DNA of 64,000 nt from Bacillus sp. FJAT-22090 (lineage in GTDB: Bacteria; Bacillota; Bacilli; Bacillales_A; Planococcaceae). The stretch spans positions 3,348,154-3,412,153 of the forward strand of contig NZ_CP012601.1 of NCBI RefSeq assembly GCF_001278755.1. Direction: 5' to 3'. This document shows positions 49,759-53,401 of the stretch, piece after piece. The translations under genes and the position numbers were made by a program. Below the pieces are notes generated by a model that did not search any database, was not told where the DNA came from, and saw only the letters and a program-made list of their open reading frames with translations. The first letter of the stretch is position 1, and each line of letters starts with the position of its first letter.

Positions 49759-51050
49759 TGTTTCAGACAATCTCCAACTTTATGCGTGTGAGAGATATTC
49801 GAAATAAAATCATTTTTACTTTATTGATGTTAATCGTCTTCCGTCTTGGTACATTTGTTCCAGTGCCGAATGTCGATGCAAATGTATTAAAACAAACAGA
49901 TCAATTAGGTTTGATCGGATTTTTAAATACATTTGGTGGTGGAGCCCTTGCTAACTTCTCTATTTTAGCAATGGGAATCATGCCATACATCACAGCTTCC
50001 ATCATTGTTCAATTGTTACAAATGGATGTTGTACCGAAGTTCACAGAGTGGTCGAAACAAGGGGAAGTCGGAAGACGGAAACTTGCTCAGTTCACTCGTT
50101 ACTTCACAATTATCTTAGCTTTTATTCAAGCAATCGCGATGTCTTACGGATTCAACCGTATGTATAGTGGTTCTTTAATAAAAGACGAAGGCATCATGAC
50201 ATACCTTGTTATTGCTGTTGTGTTAACTGCAGGAACTGCATTCTTAATGTGGTTAGGTGAGCAGATTACAGCAAAAGGTGTTGGTAATGGTATTTCTATC
50301 ATTATCTTCGCTGGTATCGCTGCTGCAATTCCGAATGCAGTAAACCAACTATATGCACAACAAATTGTAGATGCTGGTGATGCACTATTTATTAATATAA
50401 TCGTAATGGTTTTACTTCTATTGGCAGTCATCGCAGTTACAGTTGGGGTAATTTATGTAACACAAGCGTTACGTAAAATTCCAATTCAATATGCGAAACG
50501 TGTTGCTGGTACTGCTCAAACAGGCGGCCAACAAACACACTTACCTTTAAAAGTAAATGCTGCGGGAGTTATTCCAGTAATCTTTGCATCAGCTTTCCTT
50601 ATGGCACCACAATCTATTGTTTTATTTTTTGGTCAGAATAAGGTAACTGATTTTATATCAAATGCATTAGATTACACGCAACCAGTTGGAATGATAATTT
50701 ACATTGCTTTAATCATTGCGTTCTCTTACTTCTATGCATTCATTCAAGTGAATCCAGAGAATGTAGCGGACAATTTGAAAAAGCAAGGTGCGTATATTCC
50801 AGGTATTCGTCCAGGAATTAACACACAAAATTATTTGACTAGCGTATTATATCGATTAACTTTTGTTGGTTCTATTTTCCTTGCGGTGATCGCCGTTATG
50901 CCTTTATTGTTTGTTAAGTTTGCGGGACTACCGCAATCTGCACAAATTGGCGGAACAAGCTTACTAATCGTTGTAGGTGTTGCACTTGAAACGATGAAAC
51001 AGCTAGAATCACAATTAGTTAAGCGTCATTATAAAGGCTTTATGAAATAA
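49758..51050 (+). CDS. secY: Preprotein translocase subunit SecY
   Basis: A 430-residue channel protein with ten membrane helices. The N-terminus is [20 protein letters not shown], the conserved [15 protein letters not shown] forms helix 2, and the cytoplasmic loop [15 protein letters not shown] follows. It partners SecE (17638). It overlaps rplO by one base, and its C-terminal [11 protein letters not shown] is typical. Confidence 0.97.
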
Positions 51051-51102
51051 TGTTGGTTTTTAGGAACGACATAGTTCCTAAAAATCTACAAAATAGTCCT
51101 GA

Positions 51103-51771
<669 letters not shown>

Positions 51772-51773
51772 TA

Positions 51774-51810
51774 GCCCGGTGCCTGTCTCAGATTGACTGA
51801 ATAACCGGGC
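51774..51810 (+). promoter_or_regulatory. Hairpin after adk
   Basis: GCCCGGT (51774-51780) pairs with ACCGGGC (51804-51810). No T run follows, so it is not a clear terminator. It stands between adk and the map remnant. Confidence 0.35.
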
Positions 51811-51813
51811 ATT

Positions 51814-52182
51814 ATGCAAAGAACGAAATGTTTTTTTCGAGAGCTGCAAAAGCATATTGCGCCCGGTATACGAACTTAGGGAAAGAAATGTATCAAAAAA
51901 CGAGGGCCCCCTAGTCCACGTGCATTTCCACTACTTAAGGGGTATAATGGGTTTCGTGGAAGCATCTATGTAACGAACGGGTACTATGGAACTCATCCAA
52001 CACTTTCGTACGAATATGTTGACATGAGGGAGACAGGTTTCTACCAGTCAGTCTACGCCGTGGATTGCTACAAGCGAAACCTTACGAGTGTCTTTCGAAC
52101 ATCTCTCATGATTTCCAAACATATGCTTAAAACGAATAGTTTCGTTCCATTAGAGGCTATACTAACAGCAAATTACGTTTGA
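51814..52182 (+). pseudogene. map: Decayed methionine aminopeptidase gene (map)
   Basis: One frame from ATG 51814 reads ...RELQKHIAPGIRT, then TAG at 51877, then after exactly 20 codons (counting the stop) KGYNGFRGSI at 51937, running open to TGA at 52180. Functional Map has ELKKHI.PGI.T and KGYNGF.GSIC with the same 20-residue spacing. The residues after GSI no longer match the family with confidence, the start of the protein is missing, and the remaining length is half of the usual 248 codons. The place, between adk and infA, is where map stands in Bacillus. The enzyme removes the first Met of proteins and is essential, so another map must exist elsewhere. Confidence 0.75.
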
Positions 52183-52227
52183 ATTTTGATGAGAACCTGA
52201 TTTGTATATAGAAGGGAGACAGGGTTG

Positions 52228-52446
52228 ATGGCGAAAGATGATGTAATTGAAGTCGAAGGAACAGTTGTTGAGACTTTGCCAAACGCGATGTTTAAGGTAG
52301 AATTAGAAAACGGTCATACAATACTTGCGCATGTATCTGGTAAAATTCGTATGCACTTTATCCGCATTTTACCTGGAGATAAAGTCACAATTGAACTATC
52401 TCCTTACGATTTAACTCGCGGTCGTATTACGTACCGTTTTAAATAA
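52228..52446 (+). CDS. infA: Translation initiation factor IF-1
   Basis: A 72-residue OB-fold protein beginning [20 protein letters not shown] and containing [20 protein letters not shown]. The ATG at 52228 follows AAGGGAG; a TTG just before it is also in frame and adds one residue. Confidence 0.96.
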
Positions 52447-52483
52447 TCTTTTGCACTCCGGACTACTAAGGAGGTTAGGTTAG

Positions 52484-52597
<114 letters not shown>

Positions 52598-52620
52598 TAA
52601 GAAGGAGGTGCACGACACAT

Positions 52621-52986
52621 ATGGCACGTATTGCTGGTGTTGACATTCCACGCGACAAACGCGTTGTTATTTCATTAACATACATTTACGGTATTGGTAA
52701 AACAACTTCACAAAAAGTATTAGCTGAAGCTGGTATTTCTGAAGAAACTCGCGTACGCGATTTAACAGAAGATGAGTTAAACAAAATCCGTGAACAAATC
52801 GGTGTATACAAAGTAGAAGGTGACCTTCGTCGTGAAGTATCACTAAACATTAAACGTTTGATGGAAATCGGATCTTTCCGTGGTATCCGTCACCGTCGCG
52901 GCTTACCTGTACGCGGACAAAATACGAAGAACAATGCTCGTACTCGTAAAGGTCCACGTAAAACAGTTGCGAACAAGAAAAAATAA
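52621..52986 (+). CDS. rpsM: 30S ribosomal protein S13
   Basis: A 121-residue 30S-head protein beginning [20 protein letters not shown], with the C-terminal basic tail ([20 protein letters not shown]). GAAGGAGGTG precedes the ATG. Confidence 0.97.
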
Positions 52987-52993
52987 TCGGTAA

Positions 52994-53401
<408 letters not shown>

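Follow-up and report, generated by a model that had tools for sequence, protein, structure and literature searches.

The adk-infA interval

In the window, by which we mean the whole stretch of 64,000 nt that was analysed, adk is followed by infA and then by rpmJ, rpsM, rpsK, rpoA and rplQ, the genes being named from translations of their open reading frames (ORFs). The last position of adk is 51771 and the first of infA is 52228, and inspection of the ORFs revealed no intact map, the gene of methionine aminopeptidase (Map), in between. The features that matter for the discussion below are the following (all coordinates are those of the window).

51118..51771, plus strand: adk, the upstream neighbour, an ORF of 217 aa
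51772..52227, plus strand: noncoding adk-infA interval of 456 nt, comprising the map relic and its flanks
51839..51871, plus strand: block 1, GAGAGYTGCAAAAGCATATTGYGCCCGGTATAC, attributed by tblastn to the Map codons of residues ~25-35; conserved over genera, with flat entropy at the former codon positions
51862..51871, plus strand: 5' arm of stem P1, CCCGGTATAC, which pairs with 51942-51951; its distal continuation is compensated between genera
51877..51879, plus strand: TAG stop in the old map frame, as placed by the tblastn alignment of the window's interval (L004)
51920..51925, plus strand: GTGCAT, candidate -35 hexamer (RTGCAW), 17 nt before TATAAT
51937..51966, plus strand: block 2, the KGYNGFRGSI codons (Map residues 58-67 by tblastn), conserved across genera as TATAATGGGTTTCGTGGAAGCATC
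51942..51951, plus strand: 3' arm of stem P1, GTATAATGGG, from the pairing tests
51943..51948, plus strand: TATAAT, candidate -10 hexamer, at a fixed spacing from RTGCAW
~52050..52160, plus strand: block 3, attributed to Map residues 129-165 (tblastn, E 4.6e-9) and containing GTCTTTCGAACATCTCTCATG (from 52090); conserved over genera
52228..52446, plus strand: infA, the first downstream gene (ORF and tblastn anchor)

The adk gene could be used as the locus anchor in all 19 genomes of the window's genus, where the adk-infA interval measures 437-458 nt. After the stop codon of adk, at 51773-51810 of the window, lies an inverted repeat rich in GC (GCCCGG ... CCGGGC), other forms of which are present in many genera.

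Descent of the interval from map

Six intact Map proteins from outgroups were used as tblastn queries against the intervals. In the window's own interval, RELQKHIAPGIRT*GKKCIKKRGPPSPRAFPLLKGYNGFRGSI matches Map residues 25-67 without gaps (44.3 bits, E 6.8e-10), which bears out the first-pass annotation in its description of a map remnant in place of an intact gene, with RELQKHIAPGIRT, a TAG and then KGYNGFRGSI at the spacing of 20 codons. The same annotation considered the rest of the interval unrecognisable; this part of it has to be given up, because a second match, to Map residues 129-165, occupies positions 279-389 of the interval (~52050-52160) with an E of 4.6e-9. Residues 60-84 are also retained in relatives, and in one of them, L075, a single alignment covers residues 26-170 (E 7.6e-19). 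The matches are colinear and lie on the plus strand. In the window, residues 68-117 are without a convincing alignment and nothing is matched past residue 165. Compared to map, the relic contains stops, frameshifts and large deletions: the stops within 456 nt leave no intact ORF of ~248 aa, and the five metal ligands of Map (Asp, Asp, His, Glu and Glu) are not all present in the window's relic.

The similarity to Map extends over the family. Among 103 intervals (from 102 genomes, since L054 and L075 belong to the same genome), 89 from 16 of the 19 genera match Map at E<=1e-3. Each of the 103 intervals gives a top plus-strand score of 21.2-68.6 bits, and a minus-strand match was obtained in only nine of them (none above 20.4 bits or with an E below 0.59), which places the similarity above chance. 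The 14 weakest plus-strand intervals, which include all members of genera g4, g8 and g12, have E values of 0.002-0.21, near the minus-strand background, and their assignment as relics rests on position and on conservation of the blocks. The plus- and minus-strand scoring covered all 103 intervals and the detailed residue-level tblastn analysis covered 45. Taken as a whole, these matches make it practically certain that the interval descends from map.

Age and spread of the loss

The 103 family intervals, which represent 19 genera, are 294-616 nt long and thus all too short for a map gene of 747 nt. DNA similarity to the window's relic was detected in 173 of 200 family genomes and in 18 of the 19 genera; the remaining genus, g4, has no DNA match to it, yet blocks 2 and 3 are readable there. 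Outside the family, an intact map directly follows adk in 18 of the 20 outgroup intervals fetched from the class. In the remaining two, L115 (whose genome is rated 84% complete) and L122, there is neither map nor Map similarity above background.

A 23-nt pattern of block 1 retrieved 66 matching records among 84,980 species genomes, and none among viral contigs. The records belong to Lysinibacillus, Psychrobacillus, Kurthia, Viridibacillus, Ureibacillus, Caryophanon, Solibacillus, Chryseomicrobium and others, with one Bacillus sp. FJAT-22090, and the motif lies between adk and infA in every one of the 62 named records in which both flanks are present. Of these records, that of Psychrobacillus vulpis is the most similar to the window (93.5% over 1.8 kb), followed by that of FJAT-22090. 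The NCBI taxonomy assigns several of the relic-carrying genera to Caryophanaceae and Psychrobacillus to Bacillaceae; GTDB unites the relic-carrying genera in one family, Planococcaceae.

The simplest history would be a single loss of map before the family radiated. The short intervals found family-wide, together with nucleotide-level conservation between genera, imply that the loss is old and was followed by retention under selection. Recent decay of map is ruled out by the same genus-wide and family-wide conservation. The first-pass annotation had treated the relic as an ordinary pseudogene and as the sign of a local change; of its interpretation, the map remnant and the existence of another Map in the genome stand, and the local change does not, since none of the 103 intervals of the 19 genera is long enough for map and conservation of the relic extends across genera.

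That other Map is encoded far from the ribosomal gene cluster. The genome from which the window was taken (4.21 Mb, one contig) encodes three M24 peptidases, one of which is a type I Map: an ORF of 256 aa at G000:C1:4159077-4159817, ~760 kb from adk, which is the sole match to TIGR00500 (303.5-303.9 bits). A type I Map was found at E<=1e-50 in 120 of the 121 family genomes searched, the exception being G052, a draft of ~310 contigs. In B. subtilis, Map and YflG both function, and a map defect is complemented by yflG in multicopy (PMC1266368). YflG thus provides the cell with a second working Map, and the type I Map of the window's genome, which passes TIGR00500, may be its counterpart. In two congeners, a broken M24 peptidase match (G017:C26:342056-342571) and a partial one (G012:C1:966962-967186) were also observed.

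Nucleotide constraint in the absence of coding

Within the window's genus (19 congeners, 171 pairs), the mean identity of the interval over gapless columns is 92.8% with a minimum of 88.0%; for adk of the same 19 genomes the mean identity is 78.7% at third codon positions and 96.9% at first and second positions. Close species differ by indels in the interval that break the frame. Between genera, the distribution of changes over the former codon positions is informative. The entropies at positions 1/2/3, computed from the commonest form per genus, with blocks 1, 2 and 3 found in 18, 18 and 17 of the 19 genera, respectively, and the most divergent block copies being absent from the calculation, are 0.35/0.24/0.29 for block 1 (0.83/0.59/1.59 in 18 intact maps), 0.53/0.49/0.42 for block 2 read in frame (0.18/0.37/1.38 in 17 intact maps) and 0.71/0.49/0.77 for block 3 (0.64/0.32/1.54 in 18 intact maps). 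The former codon positions of the relic therefore vary evenly between genera, whereas intact maps vary chiefly at position 3. A neutral pseudogene should display no selective constraint, and the relic displays a strong one; conservation at the nucleotide level without coding, which is what the relic has, is expected of a structured cis-regulatory leader RNA. We consider it very probable that the relic is under selection at the nucleotide level without coding for a protein.

A candidate promoter

In 71 of the 103 intervals and in 11 of the 19 genera, TATAAT is preceded by the hexamer RTGCAW at a distance of exactly 17 nt. When the two hexamers were allowed to lie 10-25 nt apart, 72 co-occurrences were found, of which 71 have a spacing of exactly 17 nt and one a different spacing. 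The pair is absent from the other eight genera (g2, g6, g10, g13, g15, g16, g18 and g19), and in g6 and g10 there is no TATAAT at block 2 at all. The arrangement in the 11 genera, a perfect TATAAT at a fixed 17 nt, falls within the 16-18 nt spacing of sigma-A promoters, with a weak -35 element: GTGCAT of the window shares only two of the six letters of TTGACA. It is because of this weak -35 that a consensus promoter scan does not report RTGCAW-17-TATAAT.

Both hexamers descend from map codons, those for Asp-Ala-Ile and Tyr-Asn, and the 17-nt spacing is therefore inherited. RTGCAA-17-TATAAT is present in six of the 18 outgroup maps, namely those closest by adk; 133 of 398 class genomes match the FKGYNGF codons, and many of these carry TATAAC or TACAAC instead of TATAAT. 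The entropy over 16 genera (a misplaced row of g18 was left out) is 0.91 in the hexamer and 1.45 in the spacer. This contrast is moderate, but a spacing that is fixed beside a variable spacer suggests selection. The infA-rplQ transcript of B. subtilis reportedly starts upstream of infA (PMC4495994).

Stem P1 and RNA structure

Blocks 1 and 2 are linked by stem P1, which consists of CCCGGTATAC paired to GTATAATGGG and is extended by variable distal arms. The distal arms were examined in the 18 genera in which both anchors were found, as 73 unique arm pairs. Their genus-averaged pairing energy is -5.71 kcal/mol when both arms are taken from the same genome, compared to -3.86 (sd 0.51) when they are combined between genera, and only one of 1000 between-genus permutations was as good. 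Two of 500 random downstream segments from the same interval, and none of 500 shuffled arms, paired as well. With whole arms, the contrast was reached in 6 of 400 cases for P1, 15 of 400 for P3 and 43 of 400 for P2. The compensatory change in P1 is evidence for a maintained RNA helix, and it is seen in genus g10 that P1 pairing is kept although TATAAT is lost.

Stems P2 and P3 are weak or local. P3 (GGATTGT/ACAATCC) is strong in several genera, the window's own genus not being one of them; the P3 test excluded L146, whose anchor was misplaced, and in g12 the block-3 anchor is absent. The folding stability of the whole interval is unremarkable (mean z of -1.9 for 36 intervals, -1.1 for 12 map segments and -2.2 for six adk segments). 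A pairing between GAGAG of block 1 and CTCTC of block 3 was rejected since other genera alter one side alone, and the RNAalifold consensus folds were set aside as evidence because, among the folds listed, they differ between groups; alignment A1, which holds 67 of 82 unique stretches, served for inspection only. A search of 50900-53100 with Rfam gave no match in the interval up to E 1 and two sub-threshold matches elsewhere, one of which, RF00140 at 52551-52653, lies outside the interval and scores 20 bits against a cut-off of 38.

Possible functions of the relic

The explanation that we favour, and hold to be reasonably probable, is that the infA operon has the remains of map as its cis-acting promoter and leader. 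In the ancestor of the family, map would have lost its coding role between adk and infA after another type I Map had come to serve the cell. The gene body would then have been frameshifted and cut from ~747 nt to ~300-460 nt, with three pieces kept as noncoding sequence acting for the operon downstream. The relic would carry the promoter (RTGCAW-17-TATAAT) of the infA-rpmJ-rpsM-rpsK-rpoA-rplQ transcript, acting in cis, and both the adk read-through transcript and a long infA leader would include its structured segment, P1 being kept by compensatory change. Transcription of the relic, activity of the promoter and regulation of infA are what we infer here from sequence comparisons. A more far-reaching proposal, which we make only tentatively, is that the relic may represent a new class of regulatory RNA born from the mRNA of an essential gene: the body of the map transcript would be kept as a structured RNA that sets the expression of IF-1, of the neighbouring ribosomal proteins and of the RNA polymerase alpha subunit.

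Alternatively, the relic may specify a separate structured RNA, trans-acting or protein-binding, which is processed from the adk-infA transcript and is neither leader nor promoter of infA. The conserved blocks and the compensated P1 are compatible with such an RNA, as are the location of block 1 upstream of the candidate promoter and the independent gain and loss of modules, e.g., the lack of block 3 in g12. We nevertheless regard it as unlikely: a cis role fits better with the block-1 motif, which all 62 records carry between adk and infA, and a scan of 51700-52300 found no terminator-like site. Somewhat less likely still is that only DNA signals (a promoter and upstream sites) were retained and that the RNA has no role of its own. 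The spacing fixed at 17 nt next to a variable spacer, together with the transcript start reported upstream of infA in B. subtilis, would agree with this explanation; the compensation in P1, the P1 pairing of g10, which has lost TATAAT, and the conservation of block 3 well downstream of the promoter would not. Functionless decay of a dead pseudogene, at which the stops, frameshifts and large deletions might hint, is very improbable given that the interval is more conserved than the third codon positions of adk, that the blocks are recognisable in nearly all genera and that the map-less outgroup intervals L115 and L122 retain no Map similarity. Translation of the relic, as a recoded Map or as short peptides, is hardly credible: some intervals hold open frames of more than 100 codons (up to 136) in some frame, but the entropies carry no codon-position signal, indels break the frame between close species, in some genera (L081 is an example) the ELQK codons are immediately preceded by a stop, and there is no convincing match past Map residue ~165.

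Comparison with known systems

The relic shares with map of the adk-map-infA cluster of Bacilli its locus and colinear sequence (residues 25-67 and 129-165), and differs from it in the lack of an open frame, in the large parts that are missing and in a constraint that acts on nucleotides and not on codons. The alpha-operon leader (RF00140) resembles the promoter and leader proposed here in its position at the head of ribosomal-protein genes of the same cluster, but the interval has no match to RF00140. Mammalian Xist is a noncoding RNA born from a dead protein gene and thus offers a parallel for noncoding function, which is proposed here, on the remains of a coding gene; unlike Xist, the relic resides in a bacterial ribosomal gene cluster, is fixed in a whole family and stems from a gene essential to B. 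subtilis. We recognised no description of the element in the open-licence PMC articles searched.

With the intact coding ancestor present in outgroups and ~100 descendants in 19 genera, the birth of a noncoding element can be traced base by base, and the conversion of coding sequence to a promoter or to a regulatory RNA becomes testable. The relic points to a possible control element that Rfam does not contain and that would head the genes of IF-1 and RNA polymerase alpha; this element would be overlooked if the interval were viewed as a mere map pseudogene.

Variation of the interval in individual lineages

In several outgroups, a small KOW-like ORF lies between map and infA, and L122 has one without map. 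This ORF seems to have been lost in the family too. An origin of the 3' part of the relic from the KOW gene was considered and is not convincing (best E of 0.023 in 45 family intervals). Loss of a module is in two cases confined to a single genus: g12 (L089 and L105) is without the block-3 anchor, and g2 (L059 and L070) is without the stretch between blocks 2 and 3. The intervals of L137, L140 and L141 (genus g3), at 610-616 nt, contain ~190 nt more than that of L143 just after block 3, and this extra stretch holds several inverted repeats.
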